In this document: one piece after another, positions 29,522-60,432 of the stretch | Layout: each line of letters opens with the position of its first letter | How positions within the stretch are numbered: the first letter of the stretch is position 1 | Assembly: GCA_029261355.1 (NCBI GenBank) | Contig: JAJDBM010000007.1 | Coordinates: 1 to 64,000 of the forward strand | Direction of reading: 5' to 3' | Length of the DNA stretch: 64,000 nt | DNA from: Nitrospirales bacterium | Lineage (GTDB): Bacteria; Nitrospirota; Nitrospiria; Nitrospirales; UBA8639 | The notes under the pieces: generated by a model | The model's input: the letters and a program-made list of their open reading frames with translations, nothing else | Databases searched by the model: none | Told to the model about the DNA's origin: nothing | Program-made: the position numbers and the translations under genes

Positions 29522-30484
29522 TTACCACCGAGAAATATCTTCGTCATCATCCTCAAGCCCAGAATCTGAATCTCGGAAAAACTTTTCCGTACCAAGCTCC
29601 TCGGAAAGGTCCTCAGTAAGATCAACATCATCGCTATCTTCCCCAATACCTCGGGGAAACGCATCATCCACAAACTCGTCAGCGAGGTCATCAGTTAATT
29701 CTTCGATGTCCTCATCCTGTTCTTCGCCAACCTCTACCGTGAGATCCTCACCATCGAAGTCAGAATCACCATCAGACTCAGAATCATGAGCAGTAGCGGC
29801 CAAAGCTCTGGCAATAATTTCTTCAGGAGTAAAAACCTTCGCCTCCTGAGTGCCTGAGGCCGCGACATATCGCTCATTACTCTGCTCCACAGTTTTCGTT
29901 ATACTTTTTTTAGGAACGACTTTTTTTTCAGCTTTCTTCTTCACCGGTGTTTTGGGAGTCACAACCTTCACTTGGCTTGTCACCTTTGCTACTGCTTTCT
30001 TAGCCTTTGGCACAACTTTTTTCGCAATGGTCCGCTTGGTAGGTTTTGCCTTGGAAATCACAACTTTTTTCACCTTCACAATTTTCTTGGCAACTTTTTG
30101 CACAGCAGCCTTTTTCACAACAACTTTTTTCAGGGCAATTTTTTTGGCGATAGCTTTCTTGGGGGCAGTCGTTCTAGGGGAATTCTTGGCCGTACCTTTG
30201 GAGGTACTCTTTTTGACACTTGCCAAAGGCTTCACAGCCTTAGCTGGGGTGGAAGGTTTCCCTCTCTTCACAACTTTCTTAACAAGCTTTGGACTTGACT
30301 TCACCACTGCCTTGCTTTTCGCCTTAGGCTTTGGTGTTGGCTTAGCCACTACTTTAGTCTTAACCTTTTTCTTCGTATTGGCTGCCGGCTTGGATTTTTT
30401 TACTGATTTCACCGATACTTTTAACTTGGCCTTGGCTGTAGACTGAGGCTTGGCTTTCGATTTAGGCTTGGCCTTCGTTGCCAT
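29522..30484 (-). CDS. Histone-H1-like Lys/Ala/Pro-rich protein with acidic C-terminal half
   Basis: 320 residues in two halves. Residues 1 to about 200 are Lys, Ala, Pro, Val and Thr in short repeats (KAKPKSKAK, KKVVVKKAAVQKVAKK, VPKAKKAVAKV), like eukaryotic H1 tails, chlamydial Hc1/Hc2 or AlgP. From about 215 there is a short ordered segment (KVFTPEEIIARALAAT) and then about 85 residues dominated by Asp and Glu. Basic tails of this kind bind DNA; the acidic part could bind its own tail, other proteins or cations. AGGAGGG 7 bp upstream supports the ATG at 30484. It has no signal peptide, so it is cytoplasmic or nucleoid-associated. Confidence 0.82.
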   Translation of the reverse strand: MATKAKPKSKAKPQSTAKAKLKVSVKSVKKSKPAANTKKKVKTKVVAKPTPKPKAKSKAVVKSSPKLVKKVVKRGKPSTPAKAVKPLASVKKSTSKGTAKNSPRTTAPKKAIAKKIALKKVVVKKAAVQKVAKKIVKVKKVVISKAKPTKRTIAKKVVPKAKKAVAKVTSQVKVVTPKTPVKKKAEKKVVPKKSITKTVEQSNERYVAASGTQEAKVFTPEEIIARALAATAHDSESDGDSDFDGEDLTVEVGEEQDEDIEELTDDLADEFVDDAFPRGIGEDSDDVDLTEDLSEELGTEKFFRDSDSGLEDDDEDISRW

Positions 30485-49108: not shown

Positions 49109-52100
49109 TCAGACAGCAATCGATTTCCCCAGACGTAAAAAGATGAGTTCGCATCGAATTTCATCTAAATGAAGACAATGCTGGGCTGCCTGTTTATAGA
49201 TCTCAACCTGCTCTTGATAGATGGTCTTACGGGCTGGAAGGTCATCTTCAAGAACACGATCTGTCTTGTAATCTGCCAACCATACCTCTCCGTCAAGGCG
49301 ATAAACTAAGTCAATTACACCTTCCATCACACTTGAAAAACCATTTATAGCTTGACGATTGTTCTGCATGCAATCCCAGGGAATGCTAAACGGAACCTCA
49401 CGGCCTAAGATCGTCGAACGCTGAAGCATTTCATACGTAGATGAAGCAAGAAAGGTTTCCAATATTGCAGCCAGCTCGCTGTGTATCACATCTTTTTTAT
49501 CGAAATGCTCAGGTGGAACACCCCAATCACAGATATTAGCAATGCAGGACTCGAGATGGTCTCGTGAATCAGCAAAATTCCATCTCTGTAGAACGCGGTG
49601 CGACAAAACACCAATAAGGGCTCCAAGCCCAGGAATTCGTGAAACACCATTGGAACTACGCCCAACAAGATGAGTCGGGTTTTCCCGAGAAGTTGGCGTA
49701 CGATGCGTTGATGTGGCATTCATTATTTGCCATGTCTGAGCCCGGGATTTCCATCCATCCAACCAGGGTCTGAGATCAGATGAATCGCTCAACGTATGTT
49801 CCGTCCGCAGGACAGCCGTAGACCGTTTCGGTAGTGGAGAGACAAGCGTTTGCGAACATGACGCGGCTCCTATGGTGATCGTCGCTCTATCTGGGTTTCC
49901 AATATCGTCTCCCCCCACATGTCGAAATAGATCCAGAAAGGCCCCAGATGCTAAGCGCGCAGGTGAGCCTCCTGAAATGATCAACCGCTCTTGTGCGCGA
50001 GTCATGGCCACATAGAGGAGACGGCGACGTTCGGCCTCTTCTTTAGCACGTGTTTTTTCCTTTACTAACACCGCGCTCAAGGTCGAACAATTACCGATCG
50101 ACACTCCCACCACTCCTGTCGCCCAATCAGCTGAAACCGACACGTCTTCAGACTTCGTTTGTGCACCATGGTGAAAGCCAGGCAACACGACCACGGGAAA
50201 TTCGAGCCCCTTAGCCTTATGAATGGTTAAAATACGCACAGCATCAAGTGATTCTTCCGCAAGGGCACGTTCAGTCTCGCTGGGTTGCTGTTCTAAGCGT
50301 TGCCCAAGAAGCTCTACAAATCCTGAGAGAGAAAAAGAGGAACGATCAGAATACTCTAACGCAATCATCCGAATTTTCATGAGATTAGCTGCAGCCTGCT
50401 CTCCGTGCACTGATGCCGCGGCAAGTTCGATCACAGGGCAACAGGCATAGATTCGATCAATCAACTCAAACAAGGAAAACCGAAAGGCCTCTACGTGCAA
50501 ATCGGTAAGACGTTCATATAATCGTTGAAGACCATCCTTTTTAATATTTTTCCATCCGTCTAGCCGTTCCCCTTCACGACAATCCAAAGCCTCACATTGC
50601 CGAACCTCATACACTTCTCGATCGGTCAGACCTCCTAAAGACGAACGAAGCACCCCAAGCAATGCTACAGGATCTTGGGGATTTTCAATGACGCGTAACA
50701 CATTGACCACATCAATCACTTCTTGCCGACGATAAAAATGCTTCTCCCCATCTGATACATAGGGAACACCATGTCGCTGTAAGGCCTCAATATAGACCTG
50801 AGCATGCGTCAGCTTTCTAAAAAGCAGTCCGATATGACCAGGCCGAAGCGGACGGCTTTCACCTCCAGCAATCGTCAATGCTTCATGTACAAGCAATTCC
50901 TCTTTGATCCATCGTGCAAGCTGTTCGGCTTCAATCCGTGTCAAGGAAGCGCTATCCAAACCCTTAGTCCCCTCACCTTCGACTCCAAGCAGACGAACTT
51001 CGACTCCAGATTGTTGAAGGCCACCCTGGCGATTTGGACGAACTTGTAATGGGATATTGCCTGGCTGAATATGTTGCTCAGCCTGAAATAATTGATTAAA
51101 AACCTCATTCACCACATTAAGGACTTCACCATGGCTACGAAAATTCGTCACCAACTCATAGACAACGCCACCAGAATCTCTAATTTTTTCAACCACACGA
51201 TCAAATGCTTCGAGATCGGCCCCACGAAACGTGTAAATCGATTGCTTGGGGTCGCCAACAATAAAGAGCTTGCCCGGAGCTAACGTCACATCCTTCCAAT
51301 CATAGGCGCGACATCCGGAATCCTCACACAACAATAAAACAATTTCGTACTGAATGGGGTCGGTATCCTGAAATTCATCGACCAACACGGCTCGATGCTC
51401 TAGCTTAAGACGTTCTCGCACTTCAGGATGTTCACGAAGGAGAGACCGAGCTTTCGTGAGTAATCCTTGAAACGTCACCCACCCATCTCGCGTGAACCTA
51501 TCCTGAACTTTAGTCAAAAAGGGGGAAAGAATGTGCAGCAGGCCTCGAATTCGTTGGTGATCAACCGTGAAAATCGTTTGTGCGACTCGAATCAACCCAC
51601 GTGCTTCTTGAAAATGACTCTCATTCCATCCTTTTGGCATCTTTCCTATATTGGCGAATAATACCTCTCTTTCATCGACAGGCAACGTAAAGACTTCTTC
51701 AAGACCATCATCTAGCATATGAGAAAACACTGTTCCAGCCATGAACAGCGCCTCTTCAATTTTCCTTCTTTTGGGGCGATCATATAGATCAAGCAAGGTC
51801 ATCACGTGATTCCACTTCCCAGAAAACCACTCCTGTAATCCACCAGAAAGCGTTGTCGCTTCGGTCTCTTGAATCAATGGCTCTAACGGCTGAGCATCCA
51901 GACACAGATCAAAGGCCAATCGGCGAACCTGTCCCAACCGCACATGGGAAAGAACATTTTTCCACTGATCGTGCTGCTTTCCATGTTCGTTCAATTCATC
52001 ATCAATCCATAATTCCCATTGTTGATGGAAGTATTCTTCCAAACGCGATCCATCATCTTCTTGGAAGTTGGGAGACAAACCGCTTTCCAGTGGATGGAGC

Positions 52101-52525
52101 CGAAGAAGATGTGCAGCAAAACTATGTAACGTCCCAATTTGTGATTTTCCCAGATCATCAAGAGCGGCTTGGGCTCTTCGCTGTACTTGACTAATGGACA
52201 GTCGATAGCGCTCTTGAATGTCAGCCATTCGTGAATGATGAACGAACTCACCAAGCATCGAATGGGGGTCACATTCAAGTAATGACACTAACTGTTCTTG
52301 TAAGCGCATTTTCATTTCTGCTGCCGCTTTGTTGGTAAACGTTAAGGCGACAATGTGTGTAATGGCGATCGGATCTGGCTCCCGCATCAACATGGCGAGC
52401 AAACGATTCACTAACAAGGTCGTCTTGCCAGTTCCTGCTCCAGCAATGACAACCACATTCTGCTCAAAATTGGTTTCAGCTAAATGACGGACATGCGCAT
52501 CTGGGATAGTCGAGGATTCAATCAT
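49109..52525 (-). CDS. addA: UvrD-type helicase-nuclease, AddA/RecB-like
   Basis: 1138 residues. Superfamily I helicase motifs: VVIAGAGTGKTTLLVNRLL (Walker A), VDEFQDTDPIQYE (motif II), FIVGDPKQSIYTFRGAD (motif III), VRILTIHKAKGLEFPVVVLPG (motif V) and LLYVAMTRAQERLII (motif VI). The C-terminal PD-(D/E)xK nuclease shows EGVIDLVYRLDGEVWLADYKTD. It would unwind and process double-strand breaks with its partner at 52518. The two frames overlap by 8 bp. Confidence 0.92.
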   Translation of the reverse strand: MIESSTIPDAHVRHLAETNFEQNVVVIAGAGTGKTTLLVNRLLAMLMREPDPIAITHIVALTFTNKAAAEMKMRLQEQLVSLLECDPHSMLGEFVHHSRMADIQERYRLSISQVQRRAQAALDDLGKSQIGTLHSFAAHLLRLHPLESGLSPNFQEDDGSRLEEYFHQQWELWIDDELNEHGKQHDQWKNVLSHVRLGQVRRLAFDLCLDAQPLEPLIQETEATTLSGGLQEWFSGKWNHVMTLLDLYDRPKRRKIEEALFMAGTVFSHMLDDGLEEVFTLPVDEREVLFANIGKMPKGWNESHFQEARGLIRVAQTIFTVDHQRIRGLLHILSPFLTKVQDRFTRDGWVTFQGLLTKARSLLREHPEVRERLKLEHRAVLVDEFQDTDPIQYEIVLLLCEDSGCRAYDWKDVTLAPGKLFIVGDPKQSIYTFRGADLEAFDRVVEKIRDSGGVVYELVTNFRSHGEVLNVVNEVFNQLFQAEQHIQPGNIPLQVRPNRQGGLQQSGVEVRLLGVEGEGTKGLDSASLTRIEAEQLARWIKEELLVHEALTIAGGESRPLRPGHIGLLFRKLTHAQVYIEALQRHGVPYVSDGEKHFYRRQEVIDVVNVLRVIENPQDPVALLGVLRSSLGGLTDREVYEVRQCEALDCREGERLDGWKNIKKDGLQRLYERLTDLHVEAFRFSLFELIDRIYACCPVIELAAASVHGEQAAANLMKIRMIALEYSDRSSFSLSGFVELLGQRLEQQPSETERALAEESLDAVRILTIHKAKGLEFPVVVLPGFHHGAQTKSEDVSVSADWATGVVGVSIGNCSTLSAVLVKEKTRAKEEAERRRLLYVAMTRAQERLIISGGSPARLASGAFLDLFRHVGGDDIGNPDRATITIGAASCSQTLVSPLPKRSTAVLRTEHTLSDSSDLRPWLDGWKSRAQTWQIMNATSTHRTPTSRENPTHLVGRSSNGVSRIPGLGALIGVLSHRVLQRWNFADSRDHLESCIANICDWGVPPEHFDKKDVIHSELAAILETFLASSTYEMLQRSTILGREVPFSIPWDCMQNNRQAINGFSSVMEGVIDLVYRLDGEVWLADYKTDRVLEDDLPARKTIYQEQVEIYKQAAQHCLHLDEIRCELIFLRLGKSIAV

Positions 52526-55500
52526 TCGGTACCTGCCTTCGCATAGCTCTGAGTTGCTTGGCCGGCAGGGACCGATATGATCGACTCATCGTTGGTTCAT
52601 GAAAACGACGACATGCTGACTCCAAAGAACATGACTCACAGTATTGACCAGGAAGAATATAATGTTGTCCGTTCTTCATTCCCAGCAACAAATCACCCAT
52701 CGTCTTGCGCAATTGCTGTCCAGCTGATGCTTCCCATGTCGCACGTGTAAACACTGAGCGGCGAACCATGTCACTACGATGAGGGGCCAAGTACACGAAC
52801 TCAACACGTTCAGGATATAAAGGATTGTGTACATCTCCCTCTTCAGTCTGAACACGAAACTCAGACATCAAAGAATACACCGGAGGTTGAAGAAAGGTCC
52901 CCCTGATACCTGAAACAAGTAAATCGCGTTCTTCGCTCTTCATCTTGGCACTCATCTTGAGTTTATAATCTATGATGCGAAAATCACCGGTCTCACGATT
53001 ACCATCCACCCGATCAAGACGACCATAGATTTTGACGTCTGAAAAGACTCCCGGTAATTCCATCTGCCCTGTTGCATCCACCTCCACCGCTACGGGTCGA
53101 AATCCAGACCGAAGATATTCTTCACGACTCGCTTCAATCTCAGCAATGACTAACGTCTTCACCTTGTCCCGAAGAAGGTCCCATAGCACTCGATACCCGA
53201 TCGCGTGTTCATACATATATTCGGCACAGGCGTCATCCAGCGTCGAAGCAATCATTGACTCAAGGCCTTGAGACGTGATCTGACCCTGCGGCCAACCAAC
53301 ATGTATAAGCCGAATATAGACTTGATGCAGAACAGCATGACAAAGCATGCCAACAACAGAAGGCGACAGTTCATCAGTCATCTGGTTCCGTGCAGTAGGA
53401 ATACCCAAGACATGCGAGGCATAATATTGAAAGGGACATCGTGCATAGCCTTCTAACGCGGTAGGCGAAATACCCTTCGAGATCAGACTCTGCCAATACG
53501 AATCCAGTGATCCGAGGATACCGTCACATTCCCCAAGTTCTCGGGTATCTCGCTCAAGACATTCCAGCGCATTCCAGCCCTGTTGAAATATTGAGGACTC
53601 TCGACCAAGATGTTCCAGAAGAATTGAAGGATTCATTCCTCTGAGAATTAATTTTAAGCCAAACTCTTCTCCTGTGAGTAAACTGTCTCGAAAGAGAGAA
53701 TCATCAAGCCGATCAGAAAACCGTCTCGGCAACGAGAACACAGGAGCCACGTCCGCTTGCATAGACTCTCGATTGAACTCTCGAAGAAACGACGACGGCG
53801 CCAACAGACGTCCAGTCTCTTCAGCTCGTTGATAGGACAGATACAGTCGATCCTTTGCGGCCTGTCGTATGAGGCTGAACAGGAGCTGTTCTTCGTCATA
53901 GCCTGAAAGTTTTTCGTCAATTTTATACCCCAAGGTTTCAGCCAAAACCCGTCGATGGATATCACGTAAAAAGGCATCCTCGCGAATAAACCGTGGAAAA
54001 ACTTTTTCATTGAGACCCAACACAAATAAGGCTCGAAAGGGCAACCCACGAGCAGTCATGGCATCGAGCACACGGATCCCTCGATGCGGACCTGGCTCAA
54101 GCGGCAGCGATACTTCCTCAACCAAATTCCGAAGAAGATCCATCCATTCGTCCCAGGTCATCGTATCGTGCAGGACATACAGCTGTTTTAGCAGGGAACA
54201 CAAACTTTGAATGCCTTCGGCAATCACCATCTCATGTGAAGAACCCGGGTCAATCTGCAAAGAAGTCTGCTCGTCATGGGCTTCTTCAGTCTCAAGCCCT
54301 GGCACGAGGAGATAGGATCGAATGAGCGAGAGAAACGCTTCGGACAATTGCTCAATGCAGCCCGAAGTTGGGAGCGCGCGACAATCGGCCATCAATGCAT
54401 GAATACATCGGTCGAATAACTGCATGGACTCAGCTGAGACCTGTTGTCGAGCTGACTTTCTGTGTCCCCTTCCCCAGCCTGACGACGCCTCATGATCTGA
54501 ATGCAATAGAACTGATAATCGACCCCATTGCTCCTCTCCACGTGTGATGCCAAATTGATGAACACGTTTCTCCCACAAGTCAGGCTGGACTAAATCAGGT
54601 CGATCGGTCAATCGATCCATTCGAAAATATGGGGATTTCAGAACATCAAAAATATCCTTGCGAGAAAACCGATTCGAGACAAGCCCGCCAAGTTGAAGCA
54701 ATACTTTGATGACAGGCTCATGAATCATGGGCATCACGGCCGACGAAGTAAAAGGTATTCGGTGTTGATCGAATGCTCGACGAACCCATGGCTGATAGGG
54801 TTCAAGAACACGTGCGACAACTCCAATCTCGTCAAAATTATATCCATGCAGTTCAACCAAATTCCCAATCTCTTTACAGACGATAGTCAGTTCATCTTCA
54901 ACACCCACTGCATTCATCATCTTTATAGATGGTTGATGAGTCATGGAAGAAGAATATTCAGTTTCACCAGACGAAACGACCGGTTGCTTCACGGCAAGAC
55001 CCGATGACAGATATCGATCATGAAACCGTTGCGCAAAGGCAAAAGCGGGGTCATCAATCAACGGGACATAGGCGGTGACAGCTATCTTCTGAGTCACAGC
55101 ATCAAACAATGACAGCTGAACTTGAGATAAATCGTAAAATCCGTAGTAGCACACATGACTGAGTCGAGCTAAATAATGTGAGTCCATCACCCACGGAATG
55201 ACCATCTGGGCAAGATCTTCAGCATTCCCAATCTGAAGCATCTTCATCTCTTCTTGCATACGGACCTGGAGAGACAACAAGGTACGTAAACTACCTTGAG
55301 GATCTTCGCCAAAGACTCCCTCATCTAGGCCCAGCAACACAGCGGTCGGATCAATCATGGCTTCATTGAGATCACGAATCGTGGCCCACAGGGCCGCACA
55401 GAGACCTGGAGATTCTCGAAGTCGGCTCAAGCTCTTAAAAGCGGGAATGTCACGACCCAAAATTTCTCGAAGAAGTTGCCGACAGACCAGATCAGACACG

Positions 55501-55772
55501 AGTTCACATGAAAGAGACGATTCTTGCCCAACAGTGTGAACCTGTTCGTCATACAAACGAAGAGCCAGTTGATGAAACGTGAGGAAATGCACATCAAAAA
55601 GTGCCAACCCATGATCCACACAAAGGAGCCATTGTGCGCGCTGACGAAGTATCTCTGAAGGAACGACAATCGCGAGAGGAGTAAAAGGGTCAGCAGATTT
55701 CAGCTCTTGAATCTCTTTCACAAGAGACGACTCTAAAACAGGCTGAAATGGCCCGGAGACAAGGTGGAACAT
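52518..55772 (-). CDS. addB: AddB/RecB-family nuclease with Fe-S cysteine cluster
   Basis: 1084 residues. The N-terminal half is helicase-like but degenerate. The C-terminal nuclease has YGRLDRVDGNRETGDFRIIDYKLK (PD-(D/E)xK). Four Cys follow the AddB/Cas4 pattern: one in GYARCPFQYYASHVL and three in YCESCSLESACRRF (C-x2-C-x5-C), fit for a 4Fe-4S cluster that clamps the nuclease. With the downstream gene it makes an AddAB-type break-processing enzyme. I see no separate RecD-like gene. Confidence 0.9.
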   Translation of the reverse strand: MFHLVSGPFQPVLESSLVKEIQELKSADPFTPLAIVVPSEILRQRAQWLLCVDHGLALFDVHFLTFHQLALRLYDEQVHTVGQESSLSCELVSDLVCRQLLREILGRDIPAFKSLSRLRESPGLCAALWATIRDLNEAMIDPTAVLLGLDEGVFGEDPQGSLRTLLSLQVRMQEEMKMLQIGNAEDLAQMVIPWVMDSHYLARLSHVCYYGFYDLSQVQLSLFDAVTQKIAVTAYVPLIDDPAFAFAQRFHDRYLSSGLAVKQPVVSSGETEYSSSMTHQPSIKMMNAVGVEDELTIVCKEIGNLVELHGYNFDEIGVVARVLEPYQPWVRRAFDQHRIPFTSSAVMPMIHEPVIKVLLQLGGLVSNRFSRKDIFDVLKSPYFRMDRLTDRPDLVQPDLWEKRVHQFGITRGEEQWGRLSVLLHSDHEASSGWGRGHRKSARQQVSAESMQLFDRCIHALMADCRALPTSGCIEQLSEAFLSLIRSYLLVPGLETEEAHDEQTSLQIDPGSSHEMVIAEGIQSLCSLLKQLYVLHDTMTWDEWMDLLRNLVEEVSLPLEPGPHRGIRVLDAMTARGLPFRALFVLGLNEKVFPRFIREDAFLRDIHRRVLAETLGYKIDEKLSGYDEEQLLFSLIRQAAKDRLYLSYQRAEETGRLLAPSSFLREFNRESMQADVAPVFSLPRRFSDRLDDSLFRDSLLTGEEFGLKLILRGMNPSILLEHLGRESSIFQQGWNALECLERDTRELGECDGILGSLDSYWQSLISKGISPTALEGYARCPFQYYASHVLGIPTARNQMTDELSPSVVGMLCHAVLHQVYIRLIHVGWPQGQITSQGLESMIASTLDDACAEYMYEHAIGYRVLWDLLRDKVKTLVIAEIEASREEYLRSGFRPVAVEVDATGQMELPGVFSDVKIYGRLDRVDGNRETGDFRIIDYKLKMSAKMKSEERDLLVSGIRGTFLQPPVYSLMSEFRVQTEEGDVHNPLYPERVEFVYLAPHRSDMVRRSVFTRATWEASAGQQLRKTMGDLLLGMKNGQHYILPGQYCESCSLESACRRFHEPTMSRSYRSLPAKQLRAMRRQVPND

Positions 55773-56179: not shown

Positions 56180-56449
56180 CTATGATGTTTCTTTCGGTTT
56201 CATTTTAGCTGCTAACGCTTTCTCTGCCGCTTGTCGAGTAGGAACGCCAATAAACGTCAGCTTCCCGTTAATGATGGTCGCTGGCGTGGCACGAATGGAA
56301 TGTCGATTCGCTAATTCTTGACCATTTTCTGTCCCTACATCAATTTCTCGATAGGTAAAGCTATATTTAACTTTCATGCCTTTCCACAGTGTTTTTGCCG
56401 AGGGGCATGCTCCACATGATTTTGATACGAGTAATGTAACGTTGGCCAT
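56180..56449 (-). CDS. Small thioredoxin/glutaredoxin-like protein
   Basis: 89 residues. The redox site is SKSCGACPSAK (Cys12, Cys15) at the start of helix 1, with the cis-Pro in RATPATIINGKLTFIGVP. It is short, like the thiol reductases of the archaeal-type thioredoxin or NrdH group. AGGAGGA lies upstream of the ATG. It is the first gene of a pair with the zinc-ribbon protein at 55979. Electron donor and target are unknown. Confidence 0.88.
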   Translation of the reverse strand: MANVTLLVSKSCGACPSAKTLWKGMKVKYSFTYREIDVGTENGQELANRHSIRATPATIINGKLTFIGVPTRQAAEKALAAKMKPKETS

Positions 56450-56515
56450 AAAAATACGTCCTCCTCAGAATGCTAATGAATAGCTCATGTTAGCACTAGA
56501 GAAAAAGTGGCCGCA

Positions 56516-56546
56516 AGGAGGAGGAACACTTTGCCATGCTCCTCCT
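56516..56546 (-). terminator. Candidate terminator after the SET-domain gene
   Basis: AGGAGGAG (56516-56523) pairs with CTCCTCCT (56539-56546) around a 15-base loop, just beyond the stop of the SET gene. Read on the minus strand, a TTTTT run follows about 10 bp after the stem. The stem is perfect; the gap before the T-run makes this a weak terminator. Confidence 0.4.
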
Positions 56547-56558
56547 CTCGGCTCTACA

Positions 56559-57113
56559 TCAAAAGCCTGAGGCCTTACTCTTAGAATGATCATGAAGATC
56601 ATCTGCACGTAATGGCCTTTGAGAATTGGACATATTCGAAAGGGAACCAACCTTCTGCCTCACATCTAATGTCAGCAAGTAAGGCGCGACAAACCCCTTA
56701 TATTCTTTCTTTCGTTCGCTTGGCAAGTCTTTCCATCCAGTAATTTTCCCTCTACACCCCTCAGCACCACACATGCACATTTCTGGAAAATGATCAATAC
56801 TATAATTCCTCATCGCATAATCAAATGTAGCTTCTTCATTCACACTGATGTCCTTCATAGCCACAAAATCATGAGCTCCGGTTGCATTGACCTTTATGCC
56901 GCAATTTGGCTCGCAGCAATGATTGACCTTACTGATTAATCCATCGTGCAGAACATGTGTATGTTCAGCTATCTGGGATGCATGAGAGTGATTGGCAGGC
57001 AGGAACTCCTTAATCACACCGACCATAACGATATCACCAACTTTAAAGGCTTTGGTCGCATAAATACCTTCTCCTTTTTGAGAAGTCCCTCTCAATTCAT
57101 ATCCAATTGACAT
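56559..57113 (-). CDS. SET-domain protein (putative lysine methyltransferase)
   Basis: 184 residues. The SET core is present: GEGIYATKAFKVGDIV at the N-terminus, SKVNHCCEPNCGI (Asn64, His65 of the S-adenosylmethionine-binding motif), then NEEATFDYAM with the catalytic-region Tyr99. A post-SET-like cluster CMCGAEGCRG follows (Cys113, Cys115, Cys120), which with Cys71 could hold zinc. SET proteins methylate lysines; bacterial examples are few and include a chlamydial enzyme that acts on histone-like proteins. AAGGAG lies 7 bp before the ATG. The last 40 residues are polar. The substrate is unknown; the Lys-rich protein at 29522 is a candidate. Confidence 0.88.
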   Translation of the reverse strand: MSIGYELRGTSQKGEGIYATKAFKVGDIVMVGVIKEFLPANHSHASQIAEHTHVLHDGLISKVNHCCEPNCGIKVNATGAHDFVAMKDISVNEEATFDYAMRNYSIDHFPEMCMCGAEGCRGKITGWKDLPSERKKEYKGFVAPYLLTLDVRQKVGSLSNMSNSQRPLRADDLHDHSKSKASGF

Positions 57114-57199
57114 CTAGCACTCCTTAAAACCTAATAGTGTGTTTTTTATCTATCCACCATGAACAAACAACGGATCTCACCCTACCTTAGGCTGTAGAG

Positions 57200-57259: not shown

Positions 57260-59221
57260 TTATGCATTCAGTATCTGCACCTTTTCGGTGTACCGCAGAA
57301 CAGTCCACACAAAAGCGGAATGGCTCCACGTCAAAGGCGATACGCAAAGCGGTGAACCATTGACAGGGTGGACCTGTTCGGCAAGTACACCGGAAGGAAG
57401 AGCATTTTTCCCACACCATTCAAAATATGGAAGAGTGGCTTGAAGCTGCTGCGGAGTCTCAGCTTGATCGATAAAATATTCTGCGAGCCACAGGGTCGAA
57501 ATAAACCATGGATTTCCAGGAATGTCATTGGGGCTATCCTCTGCACGCTGATAGACGTCACCCTGGTATCTGGCGCACCCTTCAACAGCAGTATTCAACC
57601 AGAGCTGATTGCGTACAGCATTGGCAGTTTCAAGCATACACAAATCGTTCGGATCAAAAACCCCAAGAGTGGCCAAACTTAAAAGACTGACATCAATGAC
57701 TTCATCGAGTTGATATCCTTCTTCTGTTCGGGAGCCTGAACGGGCAAATCGCTTCAGCCCGTCATGGTAAAGGTGAAGACGAATCCCTCTCGTCATTTCC
57801 TCAGCCACCAAGTCATACTTGCTTGCGAGAGAAACATCATGAAAGAGTTTTGCAAAATTCGCAGCGGCCCGGAGTCCAGCGATCACCGATGCCACAGTAT
57901 AGGCATGGAGAGCATACCGTTCTTCCCATAAATCATAGGAAGGCAACGGTAGCAATGTCTTAGGATCACGATAGCTAACTAAAAAGTCCGCTGATTTTTT
58001 AATAAGGGAATTGTAGAGTGGTCGAATAAACTCGACGTCCTTCAAACTCTGGTAATGTAGCCAAAGCGCCCATAGAGTCAACGCGGTTGAATCTTCTTGG
58101 ATGGGAAGGACCTCTTTACCATCGACTAACCATGAATGCCAATTACTGGCCAGGGATCCATCCGGATTATAATGCTGGAACAAATACCCTTCCTCGGATA
58201 ACACGCGGGCGCAATAGTCAAAATATTTCATACACACGTGCGAATACCCTGCCTTAGCTAAAGCAGCGGCAACAAAAGCACCATCCCGTCCCCACATATA
58301 CGAATACGTATCTTTTCCAAAACGAACAATATCCGAATCATTCGCGGCTATAATCGCGCCATGATTATCAATTTGTGTCCGTAAGACAAGTAGGCTTCGG
58401 TGAAAAATATCAGTCACGGATTTGGGAAGATCCCGGAGTGGGAGTGAGTCTTTAGGCACCCAAGTTTTCCAGTATTTAGACGAGCGCTTGAGTAGTTCCT
58501 CCGGCATAATGCGATGGACTTCCAAATTGAGCTTGGTGACTTCTGAGTAAGTCGTACCCGCTACAATCCAATAATAGGCAATTGTGGTTCCTTGAGGAGG
58601 CAATTCCATCCAAATACCTATGGTTGAATGAGGTGAACCCCATGCAGAGGCCTCCCCGCTCAGTTCTCCGTTCTCTAGCTCTTTCAGTATCGCCAAACTG
58701 CCTGAAGTCTCTCTTTTTCCGCAGGCAAAATGAGTCACACCCCATTGATCATGCGCCCAACAACTAATCAGAAAATATCGGTGCATTTTATAATGAATGA
58801 TCGAACAGCTCCGTGGATCAAAATAGGCCGTACCTCCAATGTCATTCCCATACAGAAAAAAATCATGGCTAAAAAAGAGCCGAACCTGTCTGGCCTCAGA
58901 CTTAAGATTGCGTACCTCAATTTTCTTGACGTAGATATTCAAATCGAAATCCACCACATCCGAGCATCGGAGTTCCAATCCTAATGCCGAATTCTTGAGA
59001 AAGACCTCTGTGACAAGACTCTTATTCTCATACCGTAAATCTTTCTCCCATTCCGGCCCCATCCATGAATACAGTCCATCCACCCACACACCAAAGAGGA
59101 AAGGATGTCCACTAGAATGATTCTCCTGCCCGATAAACGGAAAGTAGATGTCTCGGATTTGATAATCCGAATCGAAATTTATTAGGAAAGCCCCGTTACT
59201 GACGGGGATATCTCTAGGCAT
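57260..59221 (-). CDS. Glycoside hydrolase family 15 (glucoamylase/trehalase-like)
   Basis: 653 residues. The N-terminal 250 residues are a beta-sandwich (FLINFDSDYQIRDIYFPFIGQENH). The C-terminal (alpha/alpha)6 barrel has the GH15 signatures TYSYMWGRDGAFVAAALAKAGY, PIQEDSTALTLWALW, PSYDLWEERYALHAYT and ALPSGVLAEQVHP, with general acid and base Glu residues in the LWEER and LAEQ segments. It has no signal peptide, so it acts in the cytoplasm on an alpha-glucan or trehalose. AAAGGA precedes the ATG. A glycosyltransferase at the right edge suggests glucan or trehalose turnover. A palindromic operator-like motif lies 122 bp upstream. Confidence 0.9.
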   Translation of the reverse strand: MPRDIPVSNGAFLINFDSDYQIRDIYFPFIGQENHSSGHPFLFGVWVDGLYSWMGPEWEKDLRYENKSLVTEVFLKNSALGLELRCSDVVDFDLNIYVKKIEVRNLKSEARQVRLFFSHDFFLYGNDIGGTAYFDPRSCSIIHYKMHRYFLISCWAHDQWGVTHFACGKRETSGSLAILKELENGELSGEASAWGSPHSTIGIWMELPPQGTTIAYYWIVAGTTYSEVTKLNLEVHRIMPEELLKRSSKYWKTWVPKDSLPLRDLPKSVTDIFHRSLLVLRTQIDNHGAIIAANDSDIVRFGKDTYSYMWGRDGAFVAAALAKAGYSHVCMKYFDYCARVLSEEGYLFQHYNPDGSLASNWHSWLVDGKEVLPIQEDSTALTLWALWLHYQSLKDVEFIRPLYNSLIKKSADFLVSYRDPKTLLPLPSYDLWEERYALHAYTVASVIAGLRAAANFAKLFHDVSLASKYDLVAEEMTRGIRLHLYHDGLKRFARSGSRTEEGYQLDEVIDVSLLSLATLGVFDPNDLCMLETANAVRNQLWLNTAVEGCARYQGDVYQRAEDSPNDIPGNPWFISTLWLAEYFIDQAETPQQLQATLPYFEWCGKNALPSGVLAEQVHPVNGSPLCVSPLTWSHSAFVWTVLRYTEKVQILNA

Positions 59222-59778: not shown

Positions 59779-60432
59779 TTAGTCGTGAAGCACGACATTG
59801 AGGAGGGAACGGTGCACGTGTAATCCGTCGTTGTACTCAATGAATCCCAGCTTGCGGAATTTTCTCATGAAGAAACCGACGCGGGAGCGCGTGGTGCCAA
59901 TCATCTCGGCCAGCCGTTCCTGACTGATCTTCGCAATAACTGGCTCCGGCTCGCCTTCTTTCCCAAACTGTGCCAGTAACAATAGCACCCGTGCGAGCCG
60001 CTTCTCGGCAGAATTAAAGAGTTGATCAACTAAGTCTTCCTGTATGCGTTTGTTGCGAACAAGAAGATATTCAAGAAACAACGACGAGAAGGTGGGTTCG
60101 TCTCGGAGGACCAGGAGCATCGCCTGTTTATCAATACGGACGATCTTCGCCACACCAAGCGTGGTCGCGGCCTCTAGGCGCGTAGCCTGACCAGTCAGGC
60201 AGGCTTCACCAAAAAACGCCGTGGCCTCCAAATTCGCCACGATGGCCTCTTTTCCCTGTTGAGATAATACGGTGAGCGAGACTGTCCCAGCCTGAATATA
60301 ATACACAGCATCCGCCGCATCCCCTTGTAAAAAAAGAATATGATCCTTTCGACACGACAAGATAGTTTTGCCCTTTCCGACTTGTGTCAGAAAAGTTTTG
60401 GAATTGAATGATGGGGGTCGCTTGGAGGACAT
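59779..60432 (-). CDS. Crp/Fnr-family transcriptional regulator (paralogue 1)
   Basis: 217 residues. A cyclic-nucleotide-type beta-roll (DHILFLQGDAADAVYYIQAGTVSLTVLSQQGKEAIV) is followed by the dimer helix. The winged helix (ISQERLAEMIGTTRSRVGFFMRKFRKLGFIEY) ends HVHRSLLNVVLHD. It lacks the N-terminal Cys cluster of FNR, so it is not an Fe-S oxygen sensor of that kind, and its cAMP residues are not obvious. It is about two-thirds identical by eye to the gene at 62543. The receiver protein at 60465 ends 33 bp upstream on the same strand. Confidence 0.92.
   Translation of the reverse strand: MSSKRPPSFNSKTFLTQVGKGKTILSCRKDHILFLQGDAADAVYYIQAGTVSLTVLSQQGKEAIVANLEATAFFGEACLTGQATRLEAATTLGVAKIVRIDKQAMLLVLRDEPTFSSLFLEYLLVRNKRIQEDLVDQLFNSAEKRLARVLLLLAQFGKEGEPEPVIAKISQERLAEMIGTTRSRVGFFMRKFRKLGFIEYNDGLHVHRSLLNVVLHD

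Follow-up and report, generated by a model that had tools for sequence, protein, structure and literature searches.

Bacterial SET proteins are routinely annotated as protein-lysine methyltransferases, and the gene at positions 56559-57113 raises the question of what such a protein methylates. It is located in the window, namely the whole 64,000-nucleotide stretch of DNA analysed here (C7, one of the 74 contigs that make up a 4.6 Mb genome), which also carries a lysine-rich, H1-like open reading frame (ORF). The first-pass annotation had described the gene product, hereafter the window SET, as a SET-domain methyltransferase and had named the H1-like protein as its possible substrate. A precedent of another kind is the SET enzyme BurB, which methylates the sulfur of free methionine and for which structures with methionine and with S-methylmethionine (SMM) plus SAM have been described (PMC12542666; discovery in PMC7496086). 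Is the substrate of the window SET the H1-like protein, another protein, or a small molecule?

The SET gene and its locus

The features of the gene and its immediate surroundings are as follows.

56559..57113, minus strand: SET-domain protein; ORF with ATG start, 184 aa, coordinates including the stop
57120..57125, minus strand: AAGGAG, RBS-like, 6 nt 5' of the SET ATG, read from the sequence
56510..56552, minus strand: hairpin directly after the SET stop, followed by CACUUUUUC (T-rich); terminator-like, MFE -28.9 kcal/mol, z -3.06
56180..56449, minus strand: thioredoxin/glutaredoxin-like protein, 89 aa, downstream neighbour, from Pfam and NCBIfam searches
57260..59221, minus strand: GH15-type glucoamylase-like protein, upstream neighbour; a homologue lies upstream of SET in locus L004 too
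59779..60432, minus strand: Crp/FNR-type regulator; in 3/3 Nitrospirales orthologue loci a homologue is located upstream of SET

The ORF matches the Pfam SET family with 33.8 bits (cut-off 22.4; E 4.7e-8); all 17 members of its clade match this Pfam family and no other. Over the first 150 codons, comparison with five orthologues gave a pN of 0.11-0.18 and a pS of 0.66-0.80. Since pN is far below pS across the orthologues, the protein is conserved and a chance frame is ruled out. The motifs named earlier are intact, with NHCCEPNC at residues 64-71, TFDYAM at 96-101 and CxC-x4-C at C113, C115, and C120. The exact ORF, the Pfam match above the cut-off and conservation at the protein level thus agree with the prediction of a SET-domain methyltransferase. 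NCBIfam provided no name for the protein. With regard to a phage origin, PHROG gave no match, and the 77 SET loci found on viral contigs, 24-42% identical, include none that belongs to the window SET clade. An Rfam scan of the window revealed neither a SAM riboswitch nor any other RNA element.

The strong hairpin after the SET stop and the T-rich stretch that follows suggest a single-gene transcript; this hairpin is absent from the list of the consensus scan. Outside Nitrospirales, SET is the only gene family that recurs across 16 clade loci, and five further stretches (three from additional genomes, two being longer pieces of genomes covered before) agree. Nitrospirales loci share the Crp/FNR-type gene and a few others. 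No partner resembling burI, burD, or burE was seen beside SET in the 16 loci or in the five further stretches, where neighbours were called from clustering and from the first residues of each ORF rather than from a domain search of every neighbour. An operon logic for the SET clade was rejected, as no neighbour is common to the whole clade. Likewise, no DMSP operon was found in the window's genome from the clade loci and a decarboxylase search. Two group III PLP decarboxylases are encoded there, with 29% identity; both are also present in sister genomes lacking the SET gene, and no SMM decarboxylase-like partner was found. S-methyl_trans (PF02574) occurs in the genome only inside one long frame, which is probably MetH. 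It was also observed that two large adjoining genes at 49109-55772 of the window form an AddAB/RecBCD-type helicase-nuclease-like pair.

The H1-like protein and its distribution

The proposed substrate corresponds to one further feature.

29522..30484, minus strand: Lys-rich H1-like ORF, 320 aa, separated from SET by about 26 kb

The lysine-rich protein noted in the first pass is real as a frame. Residues 1-205 contain 67 Lys, while the remaining 115 residues (206-320) are acidic, with 43 Asp and Glu. Pfam gave no match to this ORF. Homologues were found in 29 of the 48 genomes of the family, some matching over the acidic part alone.

The distribution of the two genes opposes the proposed link. 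Among the four SET-clade genomes in the family (n = 48), three carry the H1-like gene (Fisher p = 1.0). For G182, G190, and G248-G254, which carry the SET but do not belong to the family, no H1-like match was obtained. Overall, a match was present in 3 of the 13 distinct SET carriers tested, a set excluding L009, L012, L014, G319, G553, G577, and the Streptomyces plasmids; the query sequence has low complexity, weak homologues may be missed, and MAGs as small as 1.1 and 1.8 Mb are among the SET carriers. In the other direction, 26 of the 29 family genomes with the H1-like gene are without a window-type SET. When any SET gene was considered (26 of the 48 family genomes), both genes were present in 14 genomes, SET only in 12, the H1-like gene only in 15, and neither in 7 (p 0.38). 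The co-occurrence across genomes that had been proposed as a check therefore fails both ways. The finding named beforehand as refuting the link, a SET gene in many genomes that have no H1-like gene, was made in 10 of the 13 carriers. With SET carriers mostly lacking the H1-like gene and the reverse, the substrate link is not supported. On this gene distribution the H1-like protein was rejected as a substrate. The chlamydial precedent invoked for it holds in part: according to PMC3980110, cpnSET methylates Hc1 and Go1-SET acts on MC1-alpha, whereas the same source reports that NUE of C. trachomatis did not methylate Hc1.

Structural and profile comparison

The AF2 model of the window SET has a pLDDT of 84.8. 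When aligned by VIA-align, its best solved match was BurB in complex with SMM and SAM (Z 13.6, 128 aligned residues, rmsd 3.7). ASH1L, with Z 12.9, is level with BurB under the criterion of VIA-align itself, and the rmsd was larger for BurB than for the histone methyltransferase (2.0). Foldseek placed BurB first for the same model, with E 3.3e-9. A profile of the 17 clade members, built without BurB, also ranked BurB first (5.5e-11, 45.4 bits), matching positions 8-136, with histone methyltransferases next at 42.4 bits and matched only within positions 45-128. A second profile that included BurB homologues was not counted as evidence. In a single-sequence search of the PDB, three chains of protein-lysine methyltransferases (KMTs) scored above BurB, 44.7 vs 42.1 bits, over about 68 residues only. 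There, the Set1/MLL and ASH1L chains cover the C-terminal half, whereas BurB covers residues 12-133. Judged from the model and these matches, the nearest solved structure is BurB, by a small margin over the KMTs.

The second SET protein of the same genome, L001 (G000:C58:151617-151910; L001:1435-1872), behaved differently. Its control profile of 20 sequences ranked MLL first with 87.4 bits over the full length, and BurB was not among the best 60 of 139 matches. Its model (pLDDT 63.5) matched EZH2, MLL, and SET8, with no BurB among the 50 matches listed, and its NCBIfam match, to a model of a Legionella effector, stayed below the cut-off.

Phylogeny

In a tree of 54 rows, the KMT-like rows, including L001, split from the BurB-side rows, including the window SET, with support of 98/97, while the core grouping itself reached 90/72. 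These rows comprise 47 of the 94 aligned rows together with seven plasmid proteins; near-duplicates and long-branch rows such as L044, L048, L074, and L094 were omitted. BurB was represented in the trees by a fragment of 117 residues. When the window clade was constrained to the KMT side, the log-likelihood fell by 15.8 units, and the AU test did not reject this placement (p-AU 0.099). An earlier tree of 90 of the 94 rows, obtained under a simpler model, displayed the same division with weak support, 74/93.

Motifs and key residues

The motifs of the window SET relevant to the comparison with BurB are listed below.

56970..56984, minus strand: HASQI, residues 44-48, H-x-x-Q strand as in BurB HTLQI, from the alignment
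56901..56924, minus strand: NHCCEPNC, SAM-binding NH motif; H65 aligns with BurB His93
56811..56828, minus strand: TFDYAM; Y99 aligns with BurB Tyr124
56802..56810, minus strand: RNY, residues 102-104, in 17/17 clade members
56754..56777, minus strand: post-SET cysteines
56721..56744, minus strand: ITGWKDLP tail, residues 124-131, compared with BurB ITGAKELP

The motif alignment comprised 101 rows: 25 core, 16 other BurB-side, and 60 KMT-like, with L044 and L094 counted among the last although the 90-row tree put both on the BurB side. The core group, which was picked from the tree, consists of the window clade, BurB and its homologues, L017, and the Deinococcus, Tabrizicola, and Mesorhizobium proteins. 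Gln at the position of window residue 47 is present in all 25 core rows, in 5 of the 16 other BurB-side rows and in a single KMT-like row (1/60), which is L044. At the position of His44, the core rows have His in 24 of 25 cases, whereas 56 of 60 KMT-like rows have Tyr, Phe, or Trp; the KMT-like paralogue L001, with AIVEV, is an exception without an aromatic residue there. In SET KMTs, the aromatic residues of the Y/F-x-F strand line the lysine channel. This aromatic motif is missing in the window SET, where HASQI is found instead. The TG of the tail occurs in 22/25 core, 7/16 other BurB-side and 0/60 KMT-like rows.

Regarding the SAM contacts of BurB, His72 and His93 correspond to H44 and H65, while K13, E15, and M114 stand where BurB has Arg42, Ala44, and His138, the alignment of Arg133 being uncertain. 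The active-site tyrosine is kept as Y99; KMTs have it too, so it is not specific to the BurB type. The pair after DYA is RN in the clade (MRNY, 17/17) and TE in BurB and its nearest relatives, TE not being known as a defining feature of the BurB type. The stretch from G32 to N64, which contains the SET-I part, spans 32 residues in the window SET and 29-32 across the core, against a KMT-like median of 42; of the 60 KMT-like rows, 7 are also short and one more is a fragment. As a BurB hallmark the short SET-I stretch is weakened: some planctomycete KMT-like SETs are as short, and it is therefore no proof of kinship with BurB.

Spread of the clade and setting of its relatives

The clade is scattered, with a patchy spread. 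It was found in 3 of 245 genomes of the Nitrospirota sample (E below 1e-60), in 4 of 48 in the window's family and in 5 of 369 from Gammaproteobacteria (E below 1e-70). Streptomyces plasmids also carry clade SETs, 59-61% identical; one of these adjoins a transposase and another gave a match split in two, where the annotated gene is shorter.

The settings of more distant relatives are varied. Those in Eleftheria, Sphingomonas, and Tabrizicola are of a metabolite-operon type and speak for a small-molecule substrate, while others, and the signalling genes around the Sphingomonas SET, give a less clear picture. In Eleftheria, a SET 72% identical to BurB is accompanied by an aminotransferase, an aldehyde dehydrogenase, and a PKS. 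On a Sphingomonas paeninsulae plasmid (NZ_CP032828.1, L219:7869-9607), a BurB-like SET (45% to the BurB fragment) overlaps a PLP decarboxylase gene and is surrounded by STAS, ATP-binding, and response-regulator genes. On the Tabrizicola piscis plasmid NZ_CP034331.1 (L221:1124-6128), a BurB-side SET 36% identical to the window SET lies in a five-gene run with a GHMP kinase, a PLP enzyme, a DMT transporter, and an alanine-racemase-like gene, which looks like an amino-acid-type pathway. On plasmid p7 of Rhizobium bangladeshense (L218:7917-8786), which is phage-like, a BurB-like SET (50% to the BurB fragment) adjoins a SAM decarboxylase gene. Signalling genes are located near SET in the Deinococcus and Sphingomonas relatives, and no metabolite-type partner was seen for the Mesorhizobium relative within the annotated stretch.

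Several further arrangements were observed. Fischerella sp. PCC 9431 (L016) encodes 54 residues that share 70% identity with positions 97-150 of the window SET, possibly a broken copy of the gene. Another Nitrospirota genome carries three to four tandem SET-like ORFs (L092, L096, L097) at about 59.4-61.4 kb of G217:C11, and in the window's own genus two tandem SETs (L132, L136) lie downstream of a flippase-like membrane protein at about 33.7-34.7 kb of G265:C19.

Proposed function and alternatives

In its sequence, its motifs and the fold of its model, the window SET is related to BurB; it stands as a single gene and does not co-occur with the H1-like gene. Because it is closer to the free-methionine-methylating BurB, its substrate is probably a small molecule and not the H1-like protein. 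On balance, we favour a stand-alone BurB-type methyltransferase of a small amino-acid-like metabolite. In this enzyme, the methyl group of SAM would be passed to the metabolite within a closed pocket. For BurB it was proposed that the sulfur of methionine is brought near the SAM methyl in a sealed pocket with no general base, and the variant Y124A was almost inactive while Y124F kept over 60% of its activity (PMC12542666). By analogy with the BurB proposal, the active site would be shaped by Tyr99 and SAM would be kept in place by His65 and His44, with methyl transfer proceeding without a general base. The first candidate acceptor would be free methionine, giving S-methylmethionine, followed by a related amino acid or thioether. 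Methionine itself is a guess. With RN in place of TE and other SAM contacts of BurB changed, the substrate need not be methionine, and from these residues a different one is quite possible.

It should be considered whether a protein other than the H1-like one is methylated instead. Such a protein-lysine methyltransferase would account for the close structure and sequence matches to ASH1L, MLL, and SETD2 and for the intact SET motifs and post-SET cysteines, and the AU test leaves a KMT-side placement open. The Pfam SET score above the curated cut-off fits as well, but BurB homologues also pass. RefSeq labels BurB-side relatives 'protein-lysine N-methyltransferase', a label that is doubtful for the BurB homologue of Eleftheria. 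HASQI, as in BurB, nevertheless replaces the Y/F-x-F strand, the G32-N64 stretch is shorter than in most KMT-like rows, and in the N-terminal half the clade profile covers BurB and not the KMTs. We therefore regard this explanation as rather unlikely. Methylation of the H1-like protein, which would draw on the presence of both genes in the window and on the cpnSET-Hc1 case (PMC3980110), is highly improbable: the two genes lie far apart, most carriers of either lack the other, and L001, from the same genome, resembles the KMTs more closely.

Within the favoured small-molecule reading, the narrowest version is a true BurB equivalent, producing S-methylmethionine toward DMSP or as an end product. 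It shares the support from structure, profile, tree, and motifs, but RN replaces TE and no SMM decarboxylase-like partner was seen, so that we consider it unlikely. A broader form is given a better, though still less than even, chance: a separate, horizontally spread stand-alone clade, comprising members from Nitrospirota, Gammaproteobacteria, Streptomyces plasmids, and others, would methylate a metabolite other than that of BurB or make S-methylmethionine outside a DMSP operon. In that case, the SET fold in bacteria would serve broadly for methylating small molecules, and protein modification would not be its chief role. The best reading of the data as a whole is thus a putative new clade of BurB-like small-molecule SET methyltransferases.

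The kind of enzyme, a SET small-molecule methyltransferase, is already known from BurB. A 2026 review still describes BurB as reported exclusively from Burkholderia thailandensis (PMC13360808); PMC7496086 counts a distant counterpart in S. mobaraensis (35%), a gene treated as mmtN in PMC9135737. No paper on BurB-like SETs in Nitrospirota was found in the open-licence literature, and neither the clade, its spread nor its single-gene setting was found in the literature searched there. If the BurB side is a family of metabolite methyltransferases, many protein-lysine annotations would be wrong, and searches for bacterial makers of S-methylmethionine and DMSP would miss a branch. Chromatin methylation inferred from bacterial SET genes would then need gene-by-gene checking.

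Comparison with known systems

BurB of Burkholderia thailandensis (PDB 9L4T, 9L4V) has in common with the window SET the SET fold, the shortened SET-I stretch, the H-x-x-Q strand, the H-C-x-P-N motif, the DYA tyrosine, the post-SET cysteines, and the TG-x-K-x-L tail, at an identity of about 28-31%. The window SET has three residues more around the GAHDF loop and, unlike BurB, is a single gene without a bur-type operon; gene linkage of this kind characterises the bur cluster, not the enzyme itself. ASH1L, MLL, and SETD2 share the SET core and post-SET cysteines, but the clade profile matches them only over its C-terminal half. Bacterial KMT-like SETs have a Y/F-x-F strand and a longer G-to-N stretch, whereas the window SET has H-x-x-Q and a shorter one. 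L001 resembles the window SET in its SET domain and post-SET CxC-x4-C; it differs in lying on the other side of the tree, in being MLL-like over its full length and in being common in the family, and it would be the likelier protein methyltransferase. Finally, cpnSET and Go1-SET are small prokaryotic SET proteins like the window SET; they are reported to methylate chromatin proteins, whereas the window SET is without a link to one.
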